64,000 nt of DNA from Paramacrobiotus metropolitanus. Taxonomy: Eukaryota > Tardigrada > Eutardigrada > Parachela > Macrobiotidae. Shown here piece by piece: positions 118-54,231 of this stretch; positions within the stretch are counted from its first letter, which is position 1, and each line of letters begins with the position of its first letter. The DNA is taken from NCBI RefSeq assembly GCF_019649055.1, contig NW_026570384.1, forward strand, positions 170,921-234,920. The letters are read 5' to 3'. The position numbers and the translations under genes are program-made. The notes under the pieces were generated by a model. That model was not told where the DNA came from. It searched no databases and saw only the letters and a program-made list of their open reading frames with translations.

Positions 118-3100
118 TTATTCATCTTTTTTATCCCTATTCAAGCCTACATGGGCGAATAATTTATCGATTTGCTCTATTGATCGTATACTGTACACAC
201 TCCGTAGTCTGTATATCGATCTAAGCATGCTCTTAGATTTTCCCATCTGTAATCGCATTAGCCGCACTTGACTCCTATTCTCCGGGTTCCACGAAGGATT
301 ATTCACAACATCATTTGCCAGACATTTGAAGCTTTCTATTCGATTATAGCTACAACCAGCATACAGTGTGCTGCAATCAGGCTGACCTTGGGCAATTCCG
401 CTGGTGGCACTCTGGGCCTGCTCCTGCTCTCCACCGGTGTACATGTCGTATAGCACGCCAACCCGATCCAGATATCCTTTCATCGCATCGTCTCGCTCGG
501 CCGCCATCATCTCGTCACTGTCGTTAATGGCCGCCCCCGTCACGACGTCACCACCTTGCGCCGGGATTCCCGGAAGTAACTCCACTGTCTGCGGTTAAGA
601 AACCGATGCCAATGTATTAGGACAGCAGACATGGGGTTTCACATTACGGAAATAGGCACTAGACTTTAACTGAGCGATTTTCATCAATTTCTTATCAAAC
701 ATTTCGAGTGCTGATTCCCCGTCACTTCTATTATAGTGCTTGAACTTCAAATGTTAGTTACAGCCGTACTTACAATAAATGGACTCAGCTTTTCGTATGG
801 AGCGTGAGCTTATAATTCTTAAGAGATTATAATTCTTAAAGCGTGAATACAATACGAAGTGGCAACGAGATCATTTAAAAATCCAAAAAAAAAGCAGTTG
901 GCTTTTTTCCCCAAAAGAACCCACACTAAACATCTTGAAAAACGGAAACTTACTTACAAATGAAAAGCGTACCAAACATCTAAGCAGCAGTTTCATAAAA
1001 TATCACTCACTGGTGCCGGGCCGTTAATTTCGTCCGCAGACGGCCACAATGTCTGTATGAAATGCCGGGTAGCTGCAATCACCCGCTGCACCGGTCCAGC
1101 CAGCGCGGCATCTTCGGGATCCGGCACCGCTGGTTCCGTTCGGCGCCGCTCACGACCGGTGGGCTGACTGAAGGCATGCGAATCGCATTCATCCCGTTCC
1201 AGGCTATTTGATGGCGGGATCGGGTCAAACGGGAAAATGAAATTATTTCCATCCTAAAATCGAAAACACGCATGCACGAACTACATCAAAACTGAAATCT
1301 GCACGTTAGTCTTATGACAATAATTGCAATCAATTCACTGCAACAAGGTCATAAATTACTTCCAGAAAAGTCAGTGAAACATCTTGGAGTGATACTGGAT
1401 GAACATCTCAGTTGGGCTGACCATGTTAAAAAGGTCCAGAAGAATGTTCGGTACGGTATATCACTGTTAAATCGTGTTAAAGTCGGCCTGCCAACATCCC
1501 AACGCATTGCGCTTTTCTATGCCTTTGTTCAGTCGCATCTGGACTACTGCTCTACAGTGTGGAGCGGGGCATCTGTGCGCTTGCGTGATAAATTGGCCGC
1601 GATGCATCGTAACGGTGTCCGAGCGGCTGCAAACTACGCAAAGATACCCACGGAATCGTTCATGAACCAACATGGGATCTTACCGCTCTTCACGAGATGG
1701 AAACAAAAGGAAGCGATATGGTTATACAAGATCAAACATCCGGAAAAATTCCATGTGCCGCAGTACATCTCTGAGATGGTGGAATTTGATGACCGTATAA
1801 AGCCGTACAACCTTCGGAGTAGAAACCGCATCCTGATCAAGGCGGTAGCGAAGAAGAAAGTTGGCGAGACGACCTTTGCTTGGAAACTTAATAAATTGTG
1901 GACATTTTTTGTTGATTCTAATTTTTCTGATCTGTTCCATATTCATACAGTTGGTGCCTTTAAGCAAGCTTTGAACCGTGTCAATTTTGTTTAGGACGTC
2001 TTTTCAGTCTATCTGCACTCGTACTTTTCGATTTTGCTATTTGGCCAGGTTTAAAATCCCAGCTAGAATGTCACCCTAGCCGGAAATGGGCTACCTGCTC
2101 CACGATGAATAATAATAATAATAATAAAGGAAACAACGGAATCGCAGCTGATCAAGTCGGTTACACTTAACAAAGCATCTCCAGCTAGTTTAACTATTCT
2201 ATGCATTCAGAATGTACTCTTAATTACAGACATTTATTTAAGCCAATCGAAATTTCACGTGTAATACAGTAATATTTAAACGTTTTCCAAAGTGCTTCGA
2301 TAACCCACAAACTGCAAACCAAATTGTTTAAATCGAGCTTACACTTGGCAAGCGCATCTGGAAGACACGTTCAGTCTCCGGAATGTTCAGCAGAATCACA
2401 TGGCGCCAGATGTTGCTGGGTGTTCCGCGGTACGACCGGTTTCGCCTAAATCACATTCTCTTATTACATAATTAACACAGTTTCCTGTCGTACACAACAG
2501 CATCATACATGTCGGTATAATGTTTCCGTCGTTCGGTCATCTCCTCCGTCTCGTGTTTCACCATTTCCGCGATTTTCAACAGGGTATTCTGAAGCCACGG
2601 CAAAACACTAGCTTCCTTCCAGAAGCCGGAGCAACGACGGGCGTACAAAGCTTGCAACACAATCAGGCCGTCGTTGGATTCGTGCTGAGCGTGGCGGAAA
2701 ACGGGACATGTTGCGACATCGCGTTCAATGTGGATTTCCATCTATGTAACTCAATCGTAGTTAAAAGTTCGTAATGTAAAGTATAAACACAGCATAAACA
2801 TACGTCAAGTACCAACAACGTTACAACAAGAACATACTTAACTGTAAATAAATTACGTGTACAATAGTATATGTACAAGTACCAAAGAATAAGAAAGCAT
2901 ATGCAGTTAAAATATGAAGAGTAATATGGTTACACAACAAGAATTGTACAGATTTACTCGTATGTACATCTTACAGAAACCGATCGAAATTTTAGAAACC
3001 ATAAATCAGTTTAAGTTAAAAGGACCCTAGTCGAAAATAATTATATCTGATATCTAATACCACTGGATATCCAACATCATCTCTTCTCGACACTAAGAAC

Positions 3101-5761
3101 TTCGCTTACCTTCTCAAAAATCGTTGGTATCATTCCGGGAAAACGAAGGATGCCATCAATCAGCATGGTCTCCGCGATTTCTTCCGACACATTCTCGCCA
3201 GCTATTCCACCGGCGCTCTGACTTCGGAGGTAAAGCGCCAGAGGCACGGAGAAGGCAAAGTTGGGCAAGAGGTCCAAATTTTTAATTTCCTTGAGAAAAG
3301 CAAACCTAATTAAAGTCATCAGAAAGTTTGATTACAAAGTATTCGAAGAATTACCTTCAGAGTATCGTGGAAAGCTAAGAGGTAGGCATAATCCTTCGCT
3401 TTCAACGCCAGGTAATCCATCATTAAAATCACAGCCAAAGGATCGTCTTTCGGACTCAAACTGCGACAAAATACATTTGCTATCCACCATGAAACGCGCT
3501 AAATTAATGCCGAATCGAACGAATGTAAAAAAAGTTCATTTCAAAAGTGAACATCAATTCTTACTTGAACAAATACTTTCCCAGTTCTAAGGCAGTTTTG
3601 GGAAAGCGTGGGACGGTCAGGATAATGTGTTTGAAGAGCGCTACAAAGTATGAGCGATTAGCCGGGTAACGATAGCTCATTCGATGTAGTTCCGGATGGT
3701 TTCGCAGACGATGGTCAAAACACTGTTGAAATCCGAACAACGTATGTTCTACAAAAACCAATTAAATGCATCTCGTTTTGTTAATTCAAGGGAAGACTAA
3801 TTAATTTACCAATAGCTTGGCGAGCACTGGAATAGTTATCATCCCGCTCGTGGATACTGCCCATCAAAATCAACGCATCCGAATGGAATGGAAACTGGTG
3901 CAGAATGTCCTGCAAGAAAACCATTACAAACCAGCTCCACACTTGGTACCGAACAAGACAACTGTTTCGTGGATCGCTTTTACTGACCCGGATAACGTGA
4001 TCCTGATTGGTGTAGACCATTAACAGAAAATCATGTTGCAAATCCTTATATCGACGGGATCGCTTGAAGACAATCCAGTTTGGCCGTGCAGGATCGTCTT
4101 CGACATGCACATCTGTAAAACACGTATTACAATGAATACAGCAATAAAAAGTTTACTCAAAAATGGAGGCGGTGCTTTTAAAGCAAACCACAAAAGTAAC
4201 TGGTGTAATGTTAATCATTAGAAAAGTGCAACATTTTTTTTGAAAAGAGTGTTTCTCAAAAAAACAAATTGAGCAAAGTTTTGAGAAGAAGGGCATAGAT
4301 AAAATCAACAAACAGTTTTTAACTCACATCGATCAATCAAATCTTTGACTTCCCGTTCGGGCATGTTGGCGGGCGTTTGCACAAATAAATGCTGCACACC
4401 TCGAACACCGCGCCCACGTTCCCCACGCGCTCGGGTCATCTGTGCCACCTCCGGCACTGTCGCCTGCATGTACAGCGCACTGACTCCCACTGTCTTCTGG
4501 AACTCGTACCGATAATTCAACAGCTTTGGATTGATCCCTTCACCGGATTTAAATTTGCGCTGCTCCGCCGCCAACACCGGGGCCTGCTCATTCTGCGCCG
4601 CGAACATGGCCAGCAGCTCCTCCCCGGTCATCTTGGCCAGTTCGGGGGTGGCTTCGGATTTGCTGGCCGTTTTACGGTTCTTCTTCTTGGTGCGCTTCCT
4701 CTTGCCGGCCGACAACTGAGAGTCCGAGGCCTCCTCCAGATGGGGCTCGTCGCAGGAGGCCGGCGAGAGGGCGGCATTCTGGGCGGTGTCGCTGCTGAAG
4801 GTGTCGTTGGCTTCGTCGTCGGAGGGCAGCGCCAGAAAGCGGTTGGCGGTGGGTCGGCTGGGCTCCGAGTCGTCGCTGGACTCGGAGGTGGAGGCCTCCT
4901 CGGAGGCACTGGGTTTGCGGGCGGGGACGGGAGGTTTCTTCGAAGAGCCGGGTTTCTTCGACGCCACTACCGGCTTGGTCTTGGCTGTGGGCTTCACTGT
5001 CTTTGACTACATAACCACAATAATCTAGTTGATTTGTTCTGGTTCTATTATATTTACTTTTATCGTATTCAATACTCAAATAAAAAACAAACCTCGAAAA
5101 TGATTTACCTATTTCAGTCTATTTTCACACTCCTCTAGCTAACTACTAATAGTAATTTTTCACGTTGAAAAGCCAATGTAGTGCGAAAAAAACAAACAGA
5201 TCGACCTCGAGAACGTTTAGCCGTAGGAATACTTAAGTCCCACCGCTGTGAGTCAGTAAGCGAAGTTTTCGTGGACAGATTACATGAAAAGAAAAGTCGA
5301 CTATGTAATACATTTTTGAGAAAAGTATCTGTTACAGATAAAACCTATTAAAGATGGGACGCGAAGTTGTTATCCTTAGCCGCGTCACGTACTTTTTTGT
5401 TGGTAGTGGTTTGGATGGGCGGTTCTTCCGATGCGATCTCCTCCGCGGGGACGTCATCGCCGTGGGCCTCCTGCGCCTGCTGCAACTGTTTGCGATACTT
5501 GTTCAGACGAGCGCGCAGCTGGCCCAAATGGTGTTCCGTGGCTACAATCAAGAATACCAGATAACAAGACAGCTACAAGCAAGCAGTAACATTTCTTCGT
5601 CATGAGTGGAGTTATTATAGTTATAACACGAATTTCACGGCCAGAGGAAAATAGCTTTACTTAAAATATCGCTTACTTCGTAGGCGCTGAATCGTACCTT
5701 TGTTTTTCTGGGTTCTGGATATTTCCTTCTCGATCTCGTTAATTTTCTCCAAGAGAGACAT
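118..5761 (-). CDS. TCF25: TCF25/Rqc1-like protein with a DRG-type N-terminus (12 exons)
   Basis: Exons in transcript order: 5698-5761, 5393-5541, 4328-5006, 3988-4112, 3810-3909, 3565-3748, 3355-3460, 3110-3289, 2509-2741, 2343-2445, 1011-1253, 118-588. All phases agree and give about 878 aa. Family signatures: LPNFAFSVPLALYL (exon 8), YRYPANRSYFVALFKH (exon 6), SPKDDPLAVILMMDYLALKA (exon 7), NIWRHVILLNI (exon 10) and FDPIPPSNS (exon 11). Family knowledge: TCF25/Rqc1 is a cytosolic component of ribosome-associated quality control working with the Ltn1 ubiquitin ligase. Exon 3 is an acidic, Ser-rich then Lys-rich region with no ATG near its start, so translation must begin upstream. The first two exons read MSLLEKINEIEKEISRTQKN then ATEHHLGQLRARLNKYRKQL, the N-terminal domain of DRG GTPases. 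The 1254-2342 intron carries a LINE fragment. The exon 4/5 donor (83-nt intron) is the least certain junction. Confidence 0.8.
1264..2128 (+). mobile_element. 5'-truncated non-LTR retrotransposon (LINE) fragment
   Basis: An uninterrupted reading frame at 1314-1994 (226 aa) resembles the C-terminal part of reverse transcriptases of CR1/Jockey-type LINEs: KHLGVILDEHLSWADHVKKV, followed by SHLDYCSTVWSG and a basic tail. The catalytic FxDD region would lie upstream and is absent, so the copy is 5'-truncated. It ends in an (AAT)n run at about 2108-2127, a typical LINE 3' tail. It lies antisense within a TCF25 intron. The left edge is approximate; no target-site duplication was identified. Confidence 0.75.
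5393..5761 (-). other. DRG-like N-terminal domain encoded by TCF25 exons 1-2
   Basis: These exons encode about 70 residues closely resembling the start of DRG2 (developmentally regulated GTP-binding protein), which in that family precedes the G domain. No G1-G5 GTPase motifs follow here. Exon 2 has two possible ends: a consensus GTACGT donor after NKK (position 5393), which joins exon 3 at 5006 in phase 0, or read-through to a stop at 5348, giving an 88-aa stand-alone peptide. The splice reading is preferred because exon 3 lacks its own start codon. A short alternative product or a nested truncated DRG duplicate cannot be excluded. Confidence 0.7.
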
Positions 5762-6586
5762 GGTGGGCCGGTTAATGAGGTCTGAGGAAGATTCCGAGCG
5801 GGTACTGGCTAGATTCTTTCTTTGATACTTTGTTATTTGTATAATCAATTATGCACTTTGCAGGCAGGTTAACCAAGCACGCCGCTCCAAACCTGAACGA
5901 GTTTATTCAAATGATTTTGGTACAACGTATCTCGGATATCTGAAATGCCCCAAACAAAATCGCAATGGAAACAAAAGCGTGCAAAGAAAAATTTAAGTTA
6001 AATGACAACATCAACAATAATTTACAATAACGATAGAAATTGGTGATTTTGGATTTTACACATCAACAAATACCTCTAGCGCAACGAGGCAGCTGTCTTT
6101 TGGGCCATGTGGGGTGCAATAGCGTGAGGGTGACAGTTTGGTAGTGCTTCGGGACGGCATGCATCTGCAGCAGCTGACTGACGGACAGACGTGGACTGTG
6201 GAGTCGCGAACATCAATATTTTGTTATTTTTGCAAAGCAATTTTCATTTTGCAATGATTTTGAATATTTGCGTAGATGTTTTGATTTTGCGACGTTTGCT
6301 TCCTTGGTTTCTCGTTTTCTCGTATTTCGTGGTTTCAGATGCAGGCTAGACTGCGATTTTGGCATATTTCAGTAATTCAGTTGTGACGCTTATTTAAAAT
6401 CAGGAAAGCTTTAGCCTTTAAGCTTCCCTTTACTTCGTTACGACGAGGATGATTTTATCGACGTTCTAAGTTCGTTTTAGCTTCTTCACTGCTGATACAC
6501 TCTCGCGCAGCGACGTGATATTTATCCCTTACGATCTTGTCACTCTTGTCAGTTGTTTATTCCCGATCACACATACTCGGAGCAAA
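5762..6586. promoter_or_regulatory. Shared divergent upstream region, TCF25 / acyl-CoA dehydrogenase
   Basis: An 825-bp gap between two divergently transcribed start codons. It must hold both promoters and 5' UTRs, possibly with 5' non-coding exons. No clear TATA box or conserved reading frame was seen; the middle is moderately T-rich. Confidence 0.5.
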
Positions 6587-9500
6587 ATGCATCGGTTTCT
6601 TCGTACATGCCCCCGACATATTGGCAATGTAGGATCCGTCCTGCGAACCGCAACCGTGTGCCCGCTGCATTCCCTGTCGGGACAGAACCAGAGCGTCGTC
6701 ACCGTCAAGTTGGACTATGATCAGACGGTCCGAGCAGACGAAAAGCAGCCGCCGGAGGGAACACCCGTGCAGTATGTGCAGGGAAACTGGCCCTACTTCA
6801 TTCTGCCTACGCCCCAACTGGGCAACCAGTTCACAGAGGACGTTGTGCTCAAATCTTACCTGCAACGCGTGGCTCCCAAAGATGTAAGACACTCCAGTAA
6901 GGCGATCATAACATCGCCCATCCGTCCTAATGGTTTAATGATTTATTAATGTTTTAATATTGTGTTTAATTCAATTGCCGAGCTTTTGCAATACCCAGTA
7001 CGTTTTTGTTTTGTCATATTAGCATGTAAATTAGTAAATAATCCATGATTTCCGATCATTTGAAAACATGAAGTCGTAATAAATAAAGAAGTGTTTAAAA
7101 AATAATAAAAGCCATAGTCATCTGTGGTGTGCAAAGCGTTTTTCCAATATGCATGTCAGGCGTGGACGGCGTGGGAGGAGGATCTGGAGAGATTCGGTTG
7201 GCATTTGTCGAATCGCGGCGACATCAGCAAGCTGCACCGGCAATGCGAAGAGGAGCCCCCGCGGCTAATGCAGGTGGACGCCTGGGGGCGGCGCGTCGAC
7301 CGACTGGAGACGAGTGCCGCCTGGAAGGAGATGCACGCCATCTCCGCGGAGGAAGGCATGATTGCCATTGCTTACGAACGCGAATACGGACAGTACAGGT
7401 ACGGACTGCCGAGCGATCTGTGTTGCTGTCAAAGGAAGAATCCGGTTGATTTTGGTTGCAGTCGGATCTACCAGGTGGCTAAGAATTACCTATTCGCACC
7501 GTCATCGGGATTGTATAGCTGTCCGTTGGCCATGGTACGATTTGGATTCGTATTCTTTTTTTGTTGATTGCCAGTGCATTTCGAGAAAAATAAAACTTGA
7601 CCAGAAACACGAACAGTAAAAACAACATCCGAAAAGTGTCCCATTGTCACTTTCAGATTTTTTGTACTGCGCGAAACTTGCTTATTTCCGTTGCTTTTTA
7701 GACTTTGTTTTGTCCATTTGGCTTTCTGGTTATAGCTTTTTTCTTCATAAATAATGTTACGGCCCACTCAGTAGATGTTTCCGAAGTGCACTTTGGTTAC
7801 GGACGGGCCGTTCTAAGTGTTTTCTCTTTCCAGACGGATGGCGCAGCTCGCGTGATGGAGGTACAACCCCCTTTTCAGATTTTTGTAGGTTAAATGTATG
7901 ACTATACCGATACGCCTGCAGGTACTGAAGGACAAAGGTCCATCGGTTTTACACGAGCGTTTCCGGACCGCACTTTATCACCTGACCACACGCGAGCCGG
8001 AGAACTTCTGGACTAGGTTATCATTAATAATAACCACCTTAAATGTTACAGCCAATGGGAAAATTTGCGCTTATGATCCGTAGTGGGCAGTGGATGACGG
8101 AACGCCAGGGTGGAAGCGATGTGGCAAATGGAACGGAAACTGTAGCGGTACCGGTGGCAAATGGCCTAGGAGAGTACACGTACCGTTTACATGGCTACAA
8201 GGTAAGCAATCAGCAGTGACTATTTTTTCATCTTTGCGGTAATATGTAACGTGATACGGTACTTACAGTGTAAGACTTCGATCTTCCCAGTGTAATTTGT
8301 TTCTTATAATTGCATTAATTTTAAGAGGGCGGTACGATCGCATTGTGTCATATTCGCGTGAGCGTGAGCACTTATAATTGTGGACTTCACTGAGCGCAGA
8401 AGCTTGGAGACTGTTAAAGTACTTGTATCCTTTTAACGACGCTTTTCAGTTATTTTTGTCGCCACTTGCGTATTATGGCAGCATGCTTGTTTTGTAGTGG
8501 TTTTCGTCAGCCACAGATGCGAATATGGCGCTCACTTTGGCTAGGATCGCCGACAACAACGGACAGACTGTGCCGGTATGATCCTTGCACTTCTTGACCC
8601 TTTCAGGTGGCGCAGTGAACTGTTGTGTAGGGTAGCAAAGGCTTGTCCTTATTTTACGTGGAAACCAGGGTGTCGGATGCCCGAGTTCCCGGTAGCGAAC
8701 TGGTAAACAATATACAGATCGTCAAACTAAAGAATAAACTGGGCACACGACAGCTGCCCACGGCGGAACTGATCCTACAGGGTACCGAGGCCTTATTGGC
8801 ATCCGAGCCGGGCCGGGGTGTGGCAGCAATATCCACTATGGTAAATATTTTTTAAACTTACCTGGTTAGTAGGTCCGGATTGCAGTGTCCGTCCATAACT
8901 TGCTCATTTTTGTAGCAACTATATTTGAATAGTTTTTGTATAACATGGGTTTAAGCAGGTGAAATAAATTAATTCAGCGTTAACGACGTACGTGTTTTGA
9001 ATAGAAGCTTTACTGTCAACTTTTGAGCGGCGTTGTCGTTAACAATACAGTTACGGTCGCTGGTGCGGTCTACTTCTCTCACTTATGTTATTTTCGTGTA
9101 CGTGTTCGTCATTGATTCTTTAATCGTCCGTCTTCCGATGCAGTTGGTGTTGACCCGCATTCATAATGCGATATCGGCGGTGGGCGCCATGCGCAAGATC
9201 ATTTGTATGGCTCGCAGCTACGCCGAACAGCGTCGCGCTTTCGGCAAACGGTTAATCGAGCACGGATTGCACACACAGATCCTGGCTCGCCTGGAGCTAC
9301 AGACCCGGGGATCTTTTCTGATGATGATGGAAACGGCGCGGCTCCTGGGGCTGGAGGAAACTAATCAGGCGACAGAGAAAGACAAACTGCTGCTGCGCAT
9401 ACTAACGCCGTTAATCAAGTTGTTCACCGGAAAACAGGTTAGGAATGGATTGCAAAGTTTAGGAATGAAGTAAAATGGCATGTAACGGGGCTTGAAAACG

Positions 9501-15712: not shown

Positions 15713-18700
15713 ATGACGATGTTTGAGAACTATTGTGGATGTGGACCGAGCGCCAACACGAGGATACTGTCAGGATCCGTTTCGACAGGGCCTCCGCGTA
15801 AACCACTGCGGATTAGCCGGATTATTGTCGTACGTGTTTTTGTGGGTTTTTATTCGTACTTCAGCAGCTAACTCTGCTAACTGTGAGAGCTAATAATCAA
15901 TTAAGCATTTATCACATTTTTATGCGTTTCTCGGTTTCTGTTTCGTAAAAAGACGATATTTCTGGAAACGAAAATGTTGTTGTTTGTTGCATTCGTAATA
16001 TTTTACAGCCAGTATTAACCTAATTACCTATCAGTTAAAGAGATACTATGTGCGGGCTGTAAATCTGTCGACTTGTTGCGTTTAAATAGATTATTTCCTA
16101 AAAGGCTCGATTCTTAATGCGCACGCTGCCAAGCATTATGATAACAACAGGAAATGCTTGCTGAAAATGCTGCTGCTGCGTTTTATTACAGGAGAAATTC
16201 AAAATTGCACTTGTTTTGATTTTTGAGTTTCAGTTGTTATTGTTGAGTGGGTCCGTATATTTTCTTCTCCTCTCGTACTTTATCTGTACTCGTACTTTAT
16301 TTGTGGTTATTAATTTTTCGTTTTCGTTACTCATTAGCAGTTTAGCCTGGCAGTATTCTTGACGAGCTGTTTGTTTCCTTGCACTGAATTACAGTACAGT
16401 ATTTTAAGTTAATGCGAAAATAATGAGTTAACGTTGTATAAATTCGAATGAAACTTGCTGTTACAGATACATACCGTAGGCTGTATTTATAGCTTTTTAG
16501 TTGTGGATGTGTCCCAAAACTTTTCTCAAATGCATTTATTATGTTTATTTTCGGCTTTCGCGGTTTGTGTTCGTGTTTATATGTGTACCCTGCCGCCGGT
16601 CGTTTATTTTTTGCTTGACTGTTTTTTTTCTTTTATTGTTTAGTGATTTTCTTTGATAACCGTTCTGTAGTACTTAGCCTTTTCTATTCATAATTTTACA
16701 TTTTACATATTCACGGACAACAGCGGTAAATCAACTATCTCTTACTGGTGTAATACGATGTAGAATGCGTACTAAATGTTAGGTTCAGAAGTTTTTAGGC
16801 ATTTAGGTGTGTCGGTGTAGATCCAGGAATTTTCCAATGTAAATAAGTTACGTTATTATGTATCTGCTGATGATTGTAGTTTTGCTACCACAGTGAAGTG
16901 CATTTCGTCAAAGAAAATTATTTTATTTAATATGATACCAAATTAGTATAAAAAAAACTGAGCTTTCGTTCAGGATGGAAAATAATCAAGCTATGCTGTC
17001 TGACTTATTTATCTTTGCCTGTGCTTGCTTTAATTGCATCAAGAGAAAAGATTAGTAACGTTCGTAATTTCTCGCCTAGCTAATTGTAAGGGTTTATTCC
17101 CACTGCATGTTAGCACTTACAACTGCGGTACTTGAAAGTTGAACGTATAAGCCTATCTCATAAGTCATAACAAGTCACGGCTATACGTGGGAAATCGCCG
17201 TAGTCCACGTTATGAATTGTGATGGTCCTATCATCCCATCTCCGATACTTTCCTGTTTACAGCCGTGACTTTGTTATGACATTTTTGTATTAGTAACTGT
17301 ACGAGTATTAAAACATGTATTTCCAGGTCTAGTGTACAGTGTGCCATTATAAACTGCCATTTGAGCGATAAATTCTTAGTAGGTATGTAATTGCAGCTGA
17401 AAAGTCTGGGACCACAGCTGATTCCCTTCACCCAGGCGGCATGCATCTATTTTGTGCTGTTCTTGCCGCACGACGCCATCTCAGCAGTGGCCTGTTTCAT
17501 CAAATGCCTGCCGATCATCTCCCTCATCTGTTTTGTCATACTGCACGGCAACGTCCTACCGACAACCACCAAAATTGGCACTGACAACCCTAGCACGTAT
17601 TCCCGGTGGATTCTGGCCGGGTTAGTGTTTTCGGCGGTAGGCGATGCGTTTCTGCAGTTCTCGGCGGCCGGTTACTTTATCCCGGGGATGGCGGCTTTTG
17701 GACTGGCGCATGTGTGTTACGCGGTGGCGTTCGGTGTGCAGCCGGTGCATCCGCTGTCCGGAGTCATCATCTTTGCGCTAGCTGGCAGCGTGTTTGCCTG
17801 TTTGCTGCCGTATCTGCCGGGGATGTTCACCTATGCCGTGGGGGTATATCTGGTGCTGGTTTCGTTTATGGGATGGCGTAAGTATGAAATACCGGCGTGG
17901 CCGTGTGATTAAACGATTATGCGAAAGTTTCACAAGTAGTGCAAAAGCGAATGAGGTTTCTGGTTCTGGATAACAGTTATTGGCATTAAAACGAATTCAC
18001 AGGGTTTGACCGTTTCGTAGTGTGCGTACCTGTTTCATTTCTGATTTTTCCATATCTTTCCGATAGTACTGCTTTAGCGTCATTAATGATATATAAATGT
18101 ACTTAAATGACTGCTGCATAAATTGTAGCGACCTTTGTATATAAAATTGTTTGAATAACTCCTTGTTACAGGAGCGATCGCTCGTGTACCGTTCTTGAAT
18201 GACCTGTGGACGTGGACGAAGTTGGCTTGCGCCGTGGGAGCATTGTTGTTTTGTTTGTCAGATTTGATGATTGCCATTAAAATGTTTTATTCGGACTTCC
18301 CGTTATCCCAGGTCCTTATCATGACAACTTACTATGTGGTGAGAATAGTGTTGTAAACTTGGAAACTTGCAAATATGTGAGTCTGGTAAAAACGACTAGA
18401 GTGAGTAATTTCACTCTGGGGTCTAGCATGGTTCAATGTAGCGTTCTGGCTCCGAGAATTGTGAACGAGCGCAAGACGATTTATTCTGGCGCACTTATTC
18501 TTCATTAGCGCTTAATTGCAAGCAGTTCTATTTTTACCGAAGAAGTTTAAGGAAGAAAATCGATTTCAAAGTAAGAATTTCTTCGAGATTATTCAGTAAC
18601 ATACGTTTCGGCAATATAACATAACAGTATAATATATAGTGTTATTTCATAACTTGATACGGTGAGCACGGCAATCATAACGTCTTTACCAAGCGTTCCG

Positions 18701-24576: not shown

Positions 24577-25143
24577 AAGATATGCGATCTTCTTTTTTAC
24601 TATATCGGTATATATCTAGTGAATCGGGTTTATATGACTTTGGATGAAGTGGAATAAACTGTCAAGTCAATGATTGGTCTAGATTGCTGACGCGGCAGAC
24701 GCTGTGGATAAACGGGTGGCTCATTAAAGTGCTCTCTCGGTTGGGTCTCTCTGTTTATTCATATAACAACCGGCAATGAATGTATAAATAAGAATCAACG
24801 GCCGAATGGTCCTCGTTCACCACTCAATCCATAAACATATTACGTAAAGCGATGTCTCTGGCGGCTACCGTTGGAATGGTAGAAATCTACACGCTTAATG
24901 AAATTTCAATATTTTGTATCCAAACAGGCTGGGCAAATAGATCGGCTTACTGCCATAAGTAAGTACATAGGGTAAAGAACTGCAGTATCGATTAGTTTTA
25001 GGCAGCTGACCGGGCTGCTTCCAACTTCTCTTAGAATTTCTGGTATTCTTTTCTTTTTGCGCACTCAAGATAGCAGTTTGGTTCGCAGAACCAATATCCT
25101 TTTTATTTAGTGTAGAAGAGTATCCTTGACCTTTTGATCTAGG
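24577..25143. other. Intergenic region
   Basis: Holds the cathepsin B 3' UTR with an AATAAA near 24653 and the upstream region of the first GPCR. Nothing else was recognised. Confidence 0.4.
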
Positions 25144-26085
25144 ATGGACAATGTCAGTGCTAATTACACAACGATTCCGATTGCGACATGGCAACCGGCC
25201 GCAATGGCTTTAACGGTTATCTTCATCCTTGGATTAGTCTGCAACGCGGCGGTGACAACCGTCTTCGTCTTTAATAAGGATTTATGGAGTTCGTTCAACG
25301 TTTACCTATGCAACCTGCTAGTAGCCAATCTGATCTACTTTTTTCTGGGTGCCCCGTTTGACATCATTGAGGAAGTGTTCCCGCACTGGTGGTTGGGGCA
25401 ATCGGTCTGTACCTTGTATTTGTACGCCTACTGGACCATCACCCCAGTACAGATCCTAACTCATTGTTCCATCGCGGTTAACCGCATCTGGGCGCTTTAT
25501 CGGCCCATATCCTACCGGACCCGACACACCATCGCCACCGCTATAAAGATCTGCGTGTTCTTGTGGCTCTTTGCACACCTGATCGGGCTGCCGGGTGTTC
25601 TGGTTGATGCGGTGCATTTCCAGCAGAAGAACATGTGTGTGGTAGATACGACGGATTCCGGGTTCCTGCAAATCTGGCAGCTATTGATCAACGTCATTGG
25701 ATTCTTGTGTATCTTCACGATCCTAGCGGCGTTCCCGTTGGTGCTGGGGAAGATGCAAAAACCCCGCCGGGTCAGCATTAGCATGCGCGGGAAACTGCAG
25801 CATTCGGTGTCGCAGACCTTTGCCGATCATTCGCAGCGACAAACGGTGTTATTGCTGGTGTTGACCGTTAGTGTATTTGTGCTGTGGAGTCCACTGATGT
25901 TGTATGAAGCGTTGCGGTCGTTTTTGGCAATGGATTTTCCGACGGTGGAAGCCGTGTTTATGGTGATGTTCAATGCGCAGTCGTTGTTAGATCCCATTTT
26001 GCTTGTGCTTACTCTGAAATCTGTGCGCGGTGCAGCTTTAGCAATGTTTTACCCAAGAAAATGGCTGCCCTACTTTTTTAATTAA
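25144..26085 (+). CDS. Class A-like GPCR, paralogue 1 (single exon)
   Basis: 313 aa with seven hydrophobic segments and no intron. The extracellular N-terminus has NVS and NYT glycosylation sites. TM3 starts with the expected disulfide Cys (SVCTLYLYAYW), partnered by NMCVVDT in extracellular loop 2. The usual DRY at the end of TM3 is replaced by NRIW. TM6 keeps the WxP pair (VLWSPLML). TM7 has DPILL in place of NPxxY. The same substitutions recur in the three other receptors in this window, so they are paralogues. The ligand is unknown. The start is the first ATG of the open frame. Confidence 0.88.
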   Translation: MDNVSANYTTIPIATWQPAAMALTVIFILGLVCNAAVTTVFVFNKDLWSSFNVYLCNLLVANLIYFFLGAPFDIIEEVFPHWWLGQSVCTLYLYAYWTITPVQILTHCSIAVNRIWALYRPISYRTRHTIATAIKICVFLWLFAHLIGLPGVLVDAVHFQQKNMCVVDTTDSGFLQIWQLLINVIGFLCIFTILAAFPLVLGKMQKPRRVSISMRGKLQHSVSQTFADHSQRQTVLLLVLTVSVFVLWSPLMLYEALRSFLAMDFPTVEAVFMVMFNAQSLLDPILLVLTLKSVRGAALAMFYPRKWLPYFFN

Positions 26086-28136
26086 GTTAACAATTGTAAG
26101 CTAGATTAGCAGGTCATGCTGATGATGTACTATTGTCACAAACGAATGAAACGATGACATTTTATGGTTTGGAACGCTTAATCTGTTTCCTTTATTTTGA
26201 AAAAGCGCGCACTTTTAATTCTTCCGTTTAATACTTTGTATGTGACTAATGTACGACCGAAGTTTGCCGATTTGGGAGAGCAGGGAAAGGAGATCTAGAG
26301 AGAAAAGAGCCACATTATATAACAGTATAGGGATGGATTAAAAATCATGCTAAATCACGATTTGATGCGTACCTCTTGCACATCCTGAACGCTGTAGATT
26401 TTCCAGTATGGCAGAGAAGGTACAGTAACTTATATATTTTGGTAAGACAAGTTGTACGGACAACAAAATTAATTTAGGGCAGGAGCTCTTTTTTCGACGA
26501 AAGTCAACAAAGCAAGTGTGACGCGTCACAATACTGAAAACAATCTTATTTGAAGCAATAAAAAAACAAAGATCAGAATATCGTTGGCAGTGGAAAATCG
26601 CCACCTGGTTACTGTATTTTCGGATCCCAGACATTGTAATTCGATCTGCGGATCCCGTGGAATAAAACAGCACCAGCAAAATATGAAATAGCAAAATGAG
26701 GCCGTATTTTTCTTTACTATTGTTTTGGCACTGCGCCAGGCCTATGCCAAAGGGTTAATTAAAGCTTCTACGACCAAAAGGTCACTGCGCTTTTGTGTTC
26801 GTTGGGATCCGGTATCAAGTAGCCGGTGGACGGATCCGCAACCGACAGATTCAGTGTACGAATGGTGGACTGTGAACCCGTACAGGCTGACCGGGACTGA
26901 GCCGAGCAGAAACACCGGGAGCGGACGCATTTACAAAACGCGAGCTCGAGAACCGGTGTGTTGTGAGACGGATTCGAGAGACTCGAACTTGGAGTAGGCA
27001 TTGGCGGGCGGGCGCATACGTTCCACTGGCTGCAGCGACGCGATCTGCGTTTTGCAATGGGAAAAGGGCCAGTGTATCAGCCGCTATTGTCATATTGGTT
27101 GGTACGAGTATAGTACGAGTACAAGATCGTCGATAGTTCACAGTTTCACGAAATAGGAATAGGATCAAACAAATTTTTACGTAATTGACAATAAGGCAAC
27201 ATTTTGGCGCCGCAAAAAAAGGGCAAGCCGACCTGCACATCACAAAGGGGCCTAAAAAAATGAAGTAGCAGAAGCTGATTGAACAATTCCGCCACCTCCA
27301 AATGCCGTTGGCGAATCGCAGTTGCACAGTGTTTGATGGAATGAGAGGTCCCTCCTCCTCGATGTGAGGCGCAAGCAGCATGGATGAAGGCACCCGCGAA
27401 AATCAAGCGAAAATTAAACGAAAACGAACAAAGCTGGAAATTATTTTGTGTACATGTATTTCGCCAATGGTTTGGTTCCAGTCTTTTTTACTTATAGTAT
27501 TACATGGCTTGACAGAACTGCATACCTAATTCTTCCCTACACTGCAGACTTGGAAAGCAATGACGGGTGCAAGTGAGTTGATTAAATCCGCCTTGTTGCC
27601 AAATAATAATCCTTACAATAGGGTTTCGTGCAAACTTTTTGCTGTTTTGCACACGGGACAATTGCACCAAATTGTTCACTGACAAAAATGTCGTGGGGAT
27701 ACTTTTATGTCGTTTTCTGTTCGAATGAGTACCCTTCCGTACTTTTCATTGTCAGCTTGTTCATTAAACCCGGTAAGCGTATACTCTTTTACTCCGATAT
27801 AATTATGCCGCAGAAGAACTACAGAATTCTTGCACTCACGGAAAGCGTCATTGCCAATTACGTAGGCGATGTGGTGGAATTCGTTACTTCTCACCATCAG
27901 AGACGCTGGTGCAAGTTGGTACAGTTCCACTGCATGCCATCGCAGGGCATCCGCCCGGAAGAAACTCGGGGGACCACAAATCACAATAGTCCTTGCGTTG
28001 CCCCTGTGACCGACAGCAGGTCGAAGCGATTGATCATGACTCATGAGTGTCTTTGTGCAAACGGTATACGTAGACTGCGGCTCGCTACTGGATGATCTGG
28101 CCGGTGCTTAATGCCGATGAAAGCACATTGACAGTA
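26086..28136. other. Intergenic region between GPCRs 1 and 2
   Basis: About 2 kb. It has open frames on both strands (for example 26851-27393 minus and 26725-26997 plus) that overlap each other and resemble no family. A doubled GTACGAGTA palindrome lies at 27105-27122. No confident features. Confidence 0.35.
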
Positions 28137-29042
28137 CTACACCATACAAAACAATGACATCAGAGCAATGCGCAAACCTTTCATGGTGCAAATAAACAGA
28201 ATGGGATCCATGAACATCTGCACATTATACAAAATGGCCAAGCCCGATATCAGTTCGGCATTGACTTCCACAAAGTTAGCCACCGTTAATGCGAAAAGCA
28301 GTGGTGTCCAGAAGATAAAGATACTCATAGTTAAGATTAAGAACACCACAGTCTGCAGTTTGCGGATGCTTTCCTCCGTTCGCGGACGCTGAAGCGGATC
28401 ATTGCCGGCCATGACCCTAATGCGCCATTGTAACCGGCACAGCACCAACGGTGCCGTCATAATAATCATACTTACGCAGACCATGTTGACGACAAAGATC
28501 AACAACTCCCACACATGCAAAAACTGTGATTCCTCCGCGTTGGGGTTACAAATGTCGGAATAATAAACGGCTTTCGTCACTACAATCGGCAAACTCAGGG
28601 CGTGCGCCGCTGCCCATACAGTCGTACAAACAAGCAGCGAAGCCTTCATGCTCTGGGCACCTCGATACGCCAGTGGCGCGTATAACGCCCAGATGCGGTT
28701 GAGGGCGATGGATAAATGGGAAAATATCGGGATACCAGCCAACGTCCAGATACCGTAGGTGTACCAAATGCACCAACTGGGTCCCAACCACCATGCCGGG
28801 TACAGTCCAGATACAATGTCGAACAAGGCGCCGGACAAGATGTAGAGAATGTTGCCCAAGAGAAGATTGGCCAGGTACAGGTTGAAAGAAGTCAGCAGTT
28901 CTTTGCGGATAAGAAACACCAAAAGCACCAGACTGTTGCTTATCAGGCCGACAATGGCAACAGCGCTGGAAGCCATACTGCGGGTATCAAAAGTTGCTTT
29001 AAGTGTGACATTGGTGTTGGTTATGTTAGAAACGGCTGCCAT
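28137..29042 (-). CDS. Class A-like GPCR, paralogue 2 (single exon)
   Basis: 301 aa, seven hydrophobic segments, intronless. The N-terminus has NIT and NVT sequons. Shared family marks are SFNLYLANLLLGN in TM2, AWWLGPSWCIWY before TM3, LNRIWALYAPLAYR in place of DRY, IFWTPLLFAL in TM6 and MDPILF in place of NPxxY. It is opposite in orientation to its two neighbours. The C-terminal tail is only a few residues long with no helix 8 evident, as in paralogues 1 and 3. Ligand and coupling are unknown. Confidence 0.88.
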   Translation of the reverse strand: MAAVSNITNTNVTLKATFDTRSMASSAVAIVGLISNSLVLLVFLIRKELLTSFNLYLANLLLGNILYILSGALFDIVSGLYPAWWLGPSWCIWYTYGIWTLAGIPIFSHLSIALNRIWALYAPLAYRGAQSMKASLLVCTTVWAAAHALSLPIVVTKAVYYSDICNPNAEESQFLHVWELLIFVVNMVCVSMIIMTAPLVLCRLQWRIRVMAGNDPLQRPRTEESIRKLQTVVFLILTMSIFIFWTPLLFALTVANFVEVNAELISGLAILYNVQMFMDPILFICTMKGLRIALMSLFCMV

Positions 29043-30617
29043 TGCAACTGGATTGCTTTCAATTTTGTCCTAACTTGTATTCGGTAAATGATGCACAATA
29101 TGGTTGTAATCCTTGAAACGAGTATACTTGGTATACAAAGGGCTGCATGACAAAATGTTCTCAAAAACCCCGTTCATGCGACAATTATTGGCAAACAATA
29201 AACATCGCACGAAACAAAGGCCATCAGGTGGTTGATGCGCAGCTAATATGATCTTAACAACGAGCAGAATAAATCAAGTTAATATATTTTTTTTGCTGTT
29301 TTTCCCATACTGTAAATACCGGTTACACATGCAAGCTTCGAGTTTGGCTGTACATGTTTTGTACAGCGGTTCACTCACTCAGCAGAAAAAGAAAGCGTGA
29401 GAAATGCTTGATGCTTTGAGGCACCAGATGCAGCGGAAGTGTTATTATCCCATATTCAATTTCGTATGGCGTCCTGTGACTGTTTTCAAGCTCTAAGCCA
29501 GATAACAAATTTCTTCCAGCGCATCCTGTGTTAGCTTATGCTGTATTTCTCTGAGTGTCGTATTGCGTTCTTGGAATTCCCATCGGAAAAATAAAAATTA
29601 ACAAGGTTTCTGTTGTGTTCTTATGGTATGGTACAATGTCCTTTACAGGCTAAAATAGGATTAATTAGACTGCCTTAAATACCGGAGCATAAAAGCTCAT
29701 ACTCATATCGATTACGCGGGCCAGCTAATGGCGGCCATGCTAACGGCGTTAACGACATGTCATATGTATTTCCTGCGATTCGTATAGCACCTGGTATTCG
29801 TAATTGCTGAGAAGCACTTTTCGCAGGTGGCTTTCAGTGCGTAATCCCTGCCTAATTGCCAAGGAATTCCACTAAAACTGCAACATACCACGTCATCACT
29901 ACTTCGTAGCAAAAGCTGTAAAACTGTACAGGACGACTCGTTTGAACTGGTTACGCTGGGGCAATAATACGTAAATCTTGACTTGGTTCCGGAATTCAGC
30001 TGACCATAAGCACCGCGCAGTACGGTCAATTACTGTGTTCCGCTAATTAGTTAATAGTGTAGTTTGGCTTACAACCTCCTCAGCTGTTAACCGAGGCACA
30101 GGTACAGCCGTTTTGATAGTCATTCTAAGTACTCGTACAAAGTATAAGCCGATCTCTTTGCCAAGGATTGATTTGCATTATAGCTGGCCTTTCGGGAATT
30201 AGCAAAATCAAGAGGATTACAGAAAGACAGTATGAGGTGCTATAAATTTTTTCAGATTTGTACATTTGCAAGGATCTTGGCACTCACTGTCCGTAACAGA
30301 CATAATGACAGGAGCGTTAGATATACCAGAACAGGCACGCGCTGCTGAAAATAACGGCATCCGGTTATTACGGTAGCAAATATAAAACACTTTTTCTCGT
30401 AACCAGAGACGTTGTTTAAACTGGAGTAGCCTTCATTTAAGGATCTGGACGTGATCCTTGCAAGGCTGTTTGCAGTTGTTCCTTTGAGAATTCAAGCTCC
30501 AGGAATGAATGGTTGTATACCATTCAGTACCGTGAACCTGTGCAAAATGCACATGCTTTGATATCTGCAGATCTTGTCACAGTCTTGTAATTGCACATAA
30601 GTGCCAACCAGTCGGTC
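29043..30617. other. Divergent upstream region between GPCRs 2 and 3
   Basis: About 1.6 kb separating two divergently transcribed receptors. No exon or repeat was recognised. It includes a GTACTCGTAC-type palindrome near 30128. Confidence 0.35.
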
Positions 30618-31723
30618 ATGAACACGTCCAATTCCACTTTACCGAATACCACGACGGATCTCAACACTGCTAGCTGGAAATCCAGCGCAGTGATCTCCAT
30701 TACCTTAACCACAACCGGCGTTATAACCAACGGGTTCACCGTTCTTCTGTTCTTGACTAATAGGTCACTATGGAGTCCATTCAGCGTATATCTCTTCAAT
30801 CTGGTTCTTGCTAACTTATTCTTCTATGCAACACAAGGCGGTATCGATATCATTAATAATCTGTACGCCACATGGTGGCTGCCTTCCGCATTCTGCACTG
30901 TGTATCTCTACGGTTTATTTGTGGTCACTCTCATCCCGATCTTTATCCATCCCTTGATCTCCCTTAACCGAATATGGGCGCTATGGACGCCCATTTCGTA
31001 TCGCAATCATCACACTTATCGTGTGTCAGTCGGGCTGTGTGCCGCAGCATGGTGGGTGACACATGCTGTGGGGCTGCCGGGATTGGTGGAGAATGCCCTG
31101 TATTATCGCAAACCAGAGAGCGAGGTGGGCTGCACAATCGACACAACCACATCAGCTGGACAGATGGCATATATCCTGGTCATCCAGTTTATTACGCTAA
31201 TAGCGTTGGCGCTGATGATTGTCGCTGTACCTTTAATTGTCTATAAAGAGCAAGGAAGGAGGAAAATTAAAGGTCACACCTCCACGGTTTCAGGGAATCG
31301 AGTTCGAGAAACAACGGCTGTAACCAGAGAGATACAAAATCAGTCAGGTGAAGGTTTTCATTCGGGTGATAGCGTAAGGTTTCTGTTCCTCTTCATTCGA
31401 CACCGTAGTTTCAGGCTATACTGTACTAGAAATTTAGACGAATGTTCTCGTTTGTAGCCGAAGGGACTGCTCGACGCGCAGGCGATCGCAGTCATGCACA
31501 GACCGTTCTTCTCCTAATTTTAACAATCAGCGTGGTGGTCTTGTGGGGTCCAGCTGGATTCTACTTTACTCTGCAGCCGTTCATCGGGTTTTCTTATCCA
31601 ATGGTGGAAACTGTTATTGTTTTAATGGTTAACCTGCAGGCCATACTGGATCCCGTCTATTTCGCTTGCGCACTGAAATCTGTCAGAAAAGCCAGCAAAC
31701 GGTTTTTATTTTGTCGATTCTAA
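30618..31723 (+). CDS. Class A-like GPCR, paralogue 3 (two exons)
   Basis: Exons 30618-31347 and 31458-31723 (phase 1 junction AG|GTGAAG...TTTGTAG|CC) give 331 aa. The ATG at 30618 was chosen because it begins MNTSNST, a glycosylated receptor N-terminus; upstream in-frame codons lack another ATG. Family marks: SPFSVYLFNLVLANL (TM2), TWWLPSAFCTVYLYG (TM3), LNRIWALWTPISYR, VLWGPAGFYF (TM6) and LDPVYFACAL (TM7). The intron sits in the third intracellular loop just before TM6. It has a longer third loop than paralogues 1 and 2. Confidence 0.87.
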
Positions 31724-53200: not shown

Positions 53201-54231
53201 CAAAAGGGAATGGAATTGTGCTAAGGCTTACGCTATTAATATATAGAGATTATTGTTATTAGTTGGCTGTGTGCCTGCGCTCCAAGTTTCTTGGTTGGCT
53301 GTGTACATGCGCTCCAAGTATGGCTCGATAAGTGTTCGCAATCACAGCTGTTTGAAATTCACTGGAAAATTGTTAGTCTAAACGCTTATAGAATTGTTAG
53401 TAATAACGCTTATAGCATCCTTCTTTTAATAATTTGCAACAACCCTCATCCCTGCAGTCAGTTTGGTTGGCTTTTTTGGCTCATAATGTTGTAATTAATG
53501 TTTCTTACAAAATTAGGTCATAATGTTGTAGTGATGTAGAAGATAATAATTATGAAATGCTTCTTGACACAGTCAGTGTTAGCCTGGCACATGCACAAGC
53601 AGTACTTGCCATTAGGCCAGTACTTAGTACTTAATCCGTTTAACTTGACAGAGCCATTTTCATTTGCGCCACCATGTGGGTGTACTGTCACATGGTGACC
53701 CTGCCGACCTTCATCCAGGATGAACGCCTGCGTCCCGCCAAGATGGAGCACTTCTGCTTCTTCAACACTGACCGACGGCCCTTTTGGGGTCGGGCGTTAA
53801 ACTTTCTCGTCTACCAGTTCAACGAGATCCTCATTATTATCGCCTATCCCGTCACCGTCCTGCTGTACTGGCGCAAGCTGCGCGCTGCCAAGATGGAAGA
53901 TATGCGGCGCATCAAGAAAGAACACTACCATTACCAACAGACAGCGGCCACGATTCGCCGGGAAACTCGGATAAAATACGCGCTTATCGTCCTGACCACG
54001 GTGACTTGTAGTGTGGTGCTGTTCTGGACGCCGTTAGTGGGATACGGGTTACTCAAACCGTTGCTGCGGCTTAATAGTGCGGCGGCGTTTCGCTTTCAGG
54101 AGACCGTACTTGCTATTTATACAGTGCAACCAGCAACGGATCCCATTCTGCTGACCTTTGCGCTTCGTGATGTATGGGAGCAGTTGAAAAAGGCATTCCC
54201 TAAGAACAACCGTATCGACAGTTCTCAATGA
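47294..54231 (+). CDS. Class A-like GPCR, paralogue 4, interrupted by a 5.9-kb transposon-filled intron
   Basis: Exons 47294-47709 and 53652-54231. Donor AAAAG|GTAAGA and acceptor CTTGACAG|A join in phase 2 to give 331 aa. Exon 1 carries TM1-TM3 and ends after ANRICAIVFPIQYKNY; exon 2 starts at TM4 (AIFICATMWVYCHMVTLPTF) and runs to TM7. Disulfide Cys GACTFYLYA and EHFCFFN are present. DRY is replaced by NRI, TM6 is LFWTPLVGYG, TM7 is TDPILL. The start at the ATG pair was chosen because it precedes several glycosylation sequons (NNTS, NVT); an earlier in-frame GTG is unlikely. It is the most divergent of the four paralogues. The intron contains nested Helitrons, a TIR element and a SINE-like remnant. 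Confidence 0.85.
47725..47951 (+). mobile_element. tRNA-related SINE-like remnant
   Basis: Contains GTTCTGGGTTCGATTCTTAG, matching a tRNA-type RNA polymerase III B box (GGTTCGANTCC-like), preceded by degraded tRNA-like sequence and ending in an (ATA)n tail at about 47926-47951. The segment just before the tail (ATGGCTACTGCAGAGTGATA) resembles the end of the LINE at 2085-2128 (ATGGGCTACCTGC...GATGA). It lies in the GPCR 4 intron immediately before the outer Helitron. The boundaries are approximate. Confidence 0.55.
48073..49972 (-). mobile_element. Inner (young) non-autonomous Helitron, inverted copy
   Basis: 1900 bp, minus orientation: 5' end TCTCTATATATTAAAAG at 49972 and 3' end hairpin plus CTAG at 48073. 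The first roughly 250 bp match the 43980 copy exactly where compared, and only scattered single-base differences were seen elsewhere. It is inserted at an A/T site about 80 bp from the 3' end of the outer Helitron. No transposase frame. Confidence 0.9.
50130..50311 (+). pseudogene. Exon-like fragment carried in the outer Helitron
   Basis: An open 60-codon stretch preceded by an acceptor-like CTAAACAG and ending at a stop. It encodes YEYRRVSNPDGDKFRDAVVG, then a long Glu/Lys-rich helix, a basic patch and DTNSDASN. Composition is coding-like and unlike the AT-rich flanks. Family unknown. Helitrons often capture host exons, so a captured terminal exon is the simplest explanation. Its phase does not fit GPCR 4 exon 1. 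Confidence 0.45.
51574..52510. mobile_element. TIR DNA transposon remnant with TA target site
   Basis: Inverted terminal repeats of about 32 bp: left CAGAGGGTCATTCAGCCAAG followed by TGTGGACACTT, right its complement with a single T/C difference. The element is flanked on both sides by TA, the target duplication typical of Tc1/mariner-type elements. 937 bp long without a recognisable transposase, so non-autonomous or decayed. Nested in the outer Helitron. Confidence 0.85.
53269..53326. repeat. Short direct repeat next to the Helitron
   Basis: Two copies of a roughly 31-bp unit (GGCTGTGTxCxTGCGCTCCA) in tandem, just outside the 5' end of the outer Helitron. Confidence 0.6.

Follow-up and report, generated by a model that had tools for sequence, protein, structure and literature searches.

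A likely fusion of a DRG2-type HTH module to TCF25/Rqc1 in the genome of the tardigrade Paramacrobiotus metropolitanus

The TCF25 gene and its surroundings

The window, i.e. the whole stretch of 64,000 nucleotides analysed here, corresponds to positions 170921-234920 of contig C164 in the 169.8-Mb, 533-contig assembly of Paramacrobiotus metropolitanus. Its minus strand carries a TCF25 gene whose extended model, spliced in silico from 5761 to 993, comprises 11 exons and encodes 732 amino acids. The exon borders were placed by hand, guided by homology and by the GT/AG rules, exon 11 being the least certain. The features of this gene are listed below.

5698..5761, minus strand: exon 1, 64 nt, ACC-ATG start context; encodes the first helix and the apex of the DRG2-type HTH (residues 1-21)
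5699..5701, minus strand: codon of Lys21, aligned with human DRG2 Lys21
5542..5697, minus strand: intron 1, 156 nt, phase 1; donor 7.9, acceptor 7.5; codon shared with DRG2 intron 1
5393..5541, minus strand: exon 2, residues 22-43 (second helix of the HTH) and 44-71 (acidic linker); codon usage positive in frame 0 alone of the sense frames
5007..5392, minus strand: intron 2, 386 nt, phase 0, connecting the DRG2-type module with TCF25; donor 7.9, acceptor 11.4
5007..5009, minus strand: in-frame TAG immediately 5' of exon 3 (open reading frame 4305-5006)
4328..5006, minus strand: exon 3, preceded by tatgtag; basic/acidic low-complexity region, then the lead-in to the Tcf25 domain
3988..4112, minus strand: exon 4, Pfam Tcf25
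3810..3909, minus strand: exon 5, Pfam Tcf25
3565..3748, minus strand: exon 6, Pfam Tcf25
3355..3460, minus strand: exon 7, Pfam Tcf25
3110..3289, minus strand: exon 8, Pfam Tcf25; AAG at the acceptor end
2494..2741, minus strand: exon 9, Pfam Tcf25
2343..2445, minus strand: exon 10, Pfam Tcf25
993..1253, minus strand: exon 11, FDPIPPS motif and stop codon; 3' end set at the first in-frame stop

The first-pass annotation had joined a DRG-like N-terminus to TCF25 through exons at 5698-5761, 5393-5541 and 4328-5006, and had noted that the third of these begins far from any start codon. These coordinates are exact, with GT/AG borders in place: exon 1 ends AAAG/gtacga in phase 1, exon 2 ends AAAA/gtacgt in phase 0 and exon 3 ends in phase 1. 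The missing start codon is equally real. Since a TAG occupies 5007-5009 and the first methionine of the spliced product past residue 1 is residue 197, the first 125 codons of exon 3 need an upstream coding start. The gene span initially given, 2343-5761, is correct at its 5' end but falls short at its 3' end, where a further exon with a stop codon lies at 993-1253. The FDPIPPS segment of this last exon resembles the TCF25 C-terminus; the codon-usage score of the exon is weak (0.08), the remaining five frames being negative.

The junction between exons 2 and 3 was evaluated with a splice-site matrix trained on 18 other introns (10 of DRG2, 8 of TCF25), whose leave-one-out scores range from 2.1 to 9.9 for donors and from -1.8 to 11.6 for acceptors. 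The exon 2 donor (7.9) is the best of the nine GT sites in 5340-5546, the runner-up reaching 0.7, and the exon 3 acceptor (11.4) ranks first among 21 AG sites in about 4880-5120, ahead of a runner-up at 4.9. Borders and scores thus agree with the initial proposal that exon 3 takes exon 2 in phase 0 from a gtacgt donor. When codon usage is scored with DRG2 and the core of TCF25 as training set, frame 0 gives 0.36 in the HTH, 0.29 in the linker and 0.19 in exon 3 codons 72-195, both other sense frames being negative; introns 1 and 2 score negatively in all three sense frames. The antisense frames are mostly negative, apart from 0.13 in exon 3 codons 72-195 and 0.03 in both the linker and the rest of exon 3. 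The 5' part of exon 3 therefore has the weakest coding evidence, because an antisense frame reaches 0.13 there. Both kinds of score, splice-site and codon-usage, speak for the fused frame.

The Tcf25 domain (PF04910) is complete, residues 313-660 covering positions 3-337 of the 337 of the profile (E 2e-68, 231.5 bits for a cut-off of 24.2). In addition, the product matches the solved Rqc1 chain 9ofv_v over query residues 250-395 (E 1.3e-10, 608 amino acids submitted). A single Tcf25 gene, the one in the window, was detected across the assembly. As the first-pass annotation had observed, no G domain follows the DRG-like module: a Pfam search at E up to 1 reports Tcf25 alone in the fused product, MMR_HSR1, MMR_HSR1_Xtn and TGS all being absent.

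Human TCF25 and yeast Rqc1 usually carry a short basic N-terminal motif. A coarse pattern for this usual N-terminus gave 11 loose matches when applied to 4300-8000 in the frames of the minus strand. As none of them looks like a usable start, no convincing conventional first exon was found upstream by this pattern. The human TCF25 N-terminus returned one irrelevant match among solved-structure sequences (E 1.7) and no match in a genome search run without a positive control. The proposal that a DRG module replaced the TCF25 N-terminus stands in part: an in-frame DRG2-type module does sit on the only TCF25 detected, with no convincing conventional first exon in these limited tests, but the loss of a usual N-terminus is putative. 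Among other components of ribosome quality control (RQC), an NFACT_N (NEMF-type) gene was matched in the assembly, as was an exon resembling the RING end of Listerin (51% identity to a human piece, E 1.8e-24). Genome searches for DFRP_C and for the Listerin N-terminal family were empty; since no positive control responded, these results are not evidence of absence.

Several other features surround the gene. On the plus strand, within TCF25 intron 10, an open frame of 232 amino acids (1296-1994) resembles, on visual inspection, the C-terminal portion of a non-LTR retrotransposon polymerase, and has no Pfam match at E up to 0.01. About 0.8 kb (5762-6586) separates the TCF25 start from a plus-strand open reading frame at 6470-6949 (first methionine at 6587), which suggests a shared divergent promoter region. 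Farther away, long rhodopsin-like GPCR frames occupy both strands of 25138-31457 and 53644-54231, with 7tm_1 in three of the ten frames scanned; the frame at 30591, outside these ten, is GPCR-like by eye. Pfam also identified a YhhN family frame (17391-17912, plus strand), an aldo/keto reductase family frame (57404-58048, minus strand) and fucosyltransferase (Glyco_transf_10) frames (62385-63307, minus strand).

Origin of the N-terminal module and constraint on its sequence

That exons 1 and 2 encode a DRG-like N-terminus is confirmed by a search of solved-structure sequences, in which residues 3-46 of the fused product match residues 2-45 of Ribosome-interacting GTPase 2 (Rbg2; E 5.3e-11) and residues 3-44 match two chains of Ribosome-interacting GTPase 1 (Rbg1; E 3.5e-9 and 4.1e-9). 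The fourth of the four matches, STI1 (E 0.19), is unrelated. The separate full-length DRG gene that the first-pass annotation advised seeking exists as well: a complete DRG2 of 11 exons and 364 amino acids, with MMR_HSR1, MMR_HSR1_Xtn and TGS domains (Pfam), lies on contig C65. A second gene, on contig C48, is DRG1 by its sequence. Queried with the DRG2 N-terminus, the genome gave five matches at E up to 10, and the HTH exons among them belong to no gene other than DRG2, DRG1 and that of the window. Missed matches in such genome searches carry little weight, since a search with the fused N-terminus failed to recover the real DRG2 exons.

The gene structures point to DRG2. Exon 1 measures 64 nt in DRG2 and in the window gene alike, both ending at K21/A22 in phase 1, and exon 2 ends in phase 0 in both. 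The first intron of DRG1 lies instead after residue 13, in phase 0, eight residues earlier than in the window gene. Four columns distinguish DRG2/Rbg2 from DRG1/Rbg1; of these, the window module has the DRG2 residue at three, neither residue at one and the DRG1 residue at none. DRG1 is ruled out as the source by this intron position and these diagnostic residues. By the same two measures, the module is derived from DRG2. Because the intron codon and phase, the phase-0 end of exon 2 and the diagnostic residues all match DRG2, the most plausible reading of the transfer is that exons 1 and 2 of DRG2 were shuffled by way of phase-0 introns, a route reconstructed from the gene structures.

Little else of the two loci is alike. 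A same-strand blastn comparison between window positions 5007-6600 and the DRG2 locus yielded 19 pieces, the best being 57 nt of exon 1 at 70% identity (E 0.15) and the remaining 18 measuring 11-23 nt (E >= 0.54). Judged by a proportion of synonymous differences (pS) of 0.91 and by the loss of any convincing intron or flank similarity, the transfer event is old. Misassembly or a recent duplication is rejected on account of the saturated synonymous sites of the copy compared with DRG2. Two side observations concern the DRG relatives themselves. Intron 4 of DRG2 (4780-5330 of the DRG2 locus stretch on C65) is repeat-like, with recurring ctataggcacccc motifs in both orientations, and weak MMR_HSR1_Xtn matches that miss the family cut-off occur at C37:859245-859455; one of them has an in-frame TGA, and they may represent a distant relative or a relic.

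Aligned across 43 codons, the module departs from DRG2 at 48 of 129 nucleotides (14, 9 and 25 by codon position) and at 13 of the 43 residues, with dN at 0.26 and dS saturated. When 48 substitutions were placed at random in 20,000 runs, no run produced 13 or fewer residue changes (the minimum was 20) and 77% gained a stop codon. Since the DRG2 branch has contributed some of these differences, the columns invariant in four other DRG HTHs were also counted. Within columns 3-43, the module keeps 20 of these 22, including the helix-2 leucines L27, L30, L34 and L41, and has lost two through K31R and A35N; two of the 12 differences between module and DRG2 fall in invariant columns (hypergeometric P 0.003). 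The apex segment RTQKNKAT is unchanged. The fused HTH is identical to Rbg2 at 24 of 41 positions against 30 of 41 for DRG2, and is hence the more diverged. Taken at the level of these substitutions, the module is old yet constrained.

The unchanged apex contains Lys21. Human DRG2 Lys21 was hydroxylated by human and fly JMJD7 in the assays of PMC9001643, which places the hydroxylated lysine near the A-site tRNA. Compared with the DRG1 peptide tested and with the DRG2 K21 site given in that report, Lys21 of the window module is retained in its substrate context. Seven Cupin_8 matches were obtained in the assembly, and none of those read was identified as JMJD7: the two on C128 are KDM8/JMJD5-like, that on C107 is TYW5/C2orf60-like by solved-structure comparison, that on C270 is by eye nearly identical to the latter, and that on C56 was read and assigned no identity; further matches lie on C2 and C45. 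A part of JMJD7 matched only C128, C107 and C270, at 37-38%, in a genome search. Modification of Lys21 is consequently unsupported in this animal, no JMJD7 gene having been identified. The nearly identical TYW5-like frames (C107:430082-430783 and C270:68431-69132) are perhaps uncollapsed haplotypes or a recent copy.

Interpretation of the fusion and competing explanations

From the intact junction, the intron match with DRG2, the constraint on the module and the splice-site and codon-usage scores, a real domain fusion, known from the DNA of one genome, is likely in P. metropolitanus. That the fusion protein is made can be predicted with high confidence. The locus might otherwise hold two overlapping units, namely a short DRG2-like gene reading through exon 2 to a stop at 5348 (85 amino acids) and a TCF25 gene with a downstream start or an unseen first exon. 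An in-frame stop is indeed found at 5348, past the exon 2 donor, a TCF25 retaining the Pfam domain at 313-660 could begin at methionine 197 or 205, and 17 other phase-0 ATG-to-GT stretches of a single exon lie between 5007 and 6560. Such an arrangement is nevertheless improbable: codons 72-195, ahead of the first methionine, are coding-like in frame 0 (0.19, with one antisense frame at 0.13), the donor at 5393 and the acceptor at 5006 score far above nearby alternatives, the best donor among the competing stretches reaches 4.75, and none of the 12 shown out of these 17 single-exon candidates resembles the usual TCF25 start. Still less credible, to the point of being nearly dismissed, is the reading that what lies upstream of TCF25 is there by chance, as a dead piece of DRG2 or through an assembly misjoin. 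Pseudogene fragments are common, and completeness limits are reported for the published P. metropolitanus assembly (PMC11191345), but a relic would hardly change 48 of 129 nucleotides for 13 residues with no stop, a codon type gained in 77% of the neutral simulations, and keep both splice junctions intact; a misjoin predicts near-identical sequence, and the junction sits within a 386-nt intron.

A stronger competitor accepts that the fusion protein is made and denies the hairpin any role at the ribosome. Lacking the G and S5D2L domains, the hairpin could serve as a stable N-terminal cap, as a module binding a partner or microtubules, or as a dimerisation element, a reading that comes somewhat close to an even chance. 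According to PMC3510508, the HTH of Rbg1 packs on S5D2L, and neither Tma46 binding nor polysome association requires it. The HTH of DRG1 alone is reported to bind microtubules strongly (PMC8629797), and K31 and A35, which all four of the DRGs compared have in common, are altered in the module. Against this, the RTQKNKAT apex, with the lysine reported near the A-site tRNA (PMC9001643), is unchanged, and the host protein TCF25 is itself a ribosome quality-control factor.

The preferred explanation of the whole, which is held to be probable, is that the locus is one gene encoding a chimeric TCF25/Rqc1 with a DRG2-derived hairpin that may act at the ribosome. The first two exons of DRG2, with the intron between them, would have been copied upstream of TCF25 and joined to it via phase-0 introns, and the earlier TCF25 first exon would have been lost. 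The resulting chimera would consist of a DRG2-derived HTH hairpin (1-43), a linker (44-71 and the basic/acidic tract) and an ordinary TCF25 body. At the site used by DRGs, that is the stalk base, the sarcin-ricin loop (SRL) and the A-site tRNA, the hairpin may provide TCF25, a factor of weak ribosome affinity, with a further low-affinity contact to ribosomal RNA, to tRNA or to protein. This contact, made either before splitting, while NEMF is absent from the DRG site, or on the A-site tRNA, would help to put TCF25 on stalled ribosomes, where it steers Listerin to K48-linked chains.

Published work bears on this proposal in both directions. The G and HTH domains of Rbg2 are described as contacting the leading ribosome of a stalled Gcn1-disome at H43/H44, the SRL and H89 (PMC8040806), and the DRG HTH as two amphipathic helices packed on S5D2L (PMC3510508). 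A review assigns to Rqc1/TCF25 the promotion of K48 chains in RQC (PMC12868832). In the mammalian reconstruction of PMC4321881, TCF25 was not associated with 60S-RNCs, and in the RQC structure of the same report NEMF already contacts the SRL and H43/H44. Removal of the HTH inactivates Rbg1, Tma46 binding and polysome association being unaffected (PMC3510508). The ribosome association that the first-pass annotation ascribed to the module is thus putative: the Rbg2 HTH does contact the 60S subunit (PMC8040806), but Rbg1 deprived of its HTH keeps its polysome association (PMC3510508). Because of this deletion result and of the occupation of the site by NEMF, a direct contact of the hairpin with the ribosome or tRNA is considered possible, slightly on the doubtful side. 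A more specific version seems unlikely, in which the hairpin would be a working DRG2 address label and would direct TCF25, ahead of splitting, to the A-site/stalk-base region of 80S ribosomes that have stalled or collided, in competition with DRG2 rescue. Rescue by DRG2 and destruction of the nascent chain through Listerin and K48 chains would then be coupled through one shared module, possibly under shared lysine hydroxylation.

Relation to known DRG and TCF25 proteins

A search of open-licence PMC for literature linking TCF25/Rqc1 with DRG2/Rbg2, or TCF25 with tardigrades, returned nothing relevant. To our knowledge, no other case of a DRG HTH outside the DRG family is known, and its transfer to TCF25 would be the first. 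Natural fusions often indicate functional association, and stalled ribosomes are the target of both DRGs and RQC. The fusion hints, through its sequence, at a direct link between the two stalled-ribosome pathways of DRG2 and TCF25. A 2021 review describes the DRG HTH as apparently unique to DRG GTPases (PMC8629797), and according to PMC9001643 it is in general unclear what the extra DRG domains do. A genetic connection is reported in PMC8040806, where loss of Slh1 is synthetic lethal with the quadruple knockout of Rbg1, Tma46, Rbg2 and Gir2. The window gene offers a natural test of the action of the HTH without its GTPase, as well as of the limits on TCF25 recruitment to the 60S subunit.

As far as the DNA of this one genome tells, the window gene represents a new domain architecture for TCF25. 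Like TCF25/Rqc1, it possesses a complete Tcf25 domain and was found as one gene; unlike them, it starts with a DRG2-type HTH and not with the short basic N-terminal motif of human TCF25 and yeast Rqc1. Its HTH shares with the DRG2 of the same genome the position and phase of an intron, and 30 of 43 residues are identical, whereas the product has none of the G, S5D2L and TGS domains of DRG2/Rbg2 and its linker is longer and acidic. With respect to DRG1/Rbg1, the HTH is homologous, being identical to the DRG1 of this genome at 27 of 43 residues.
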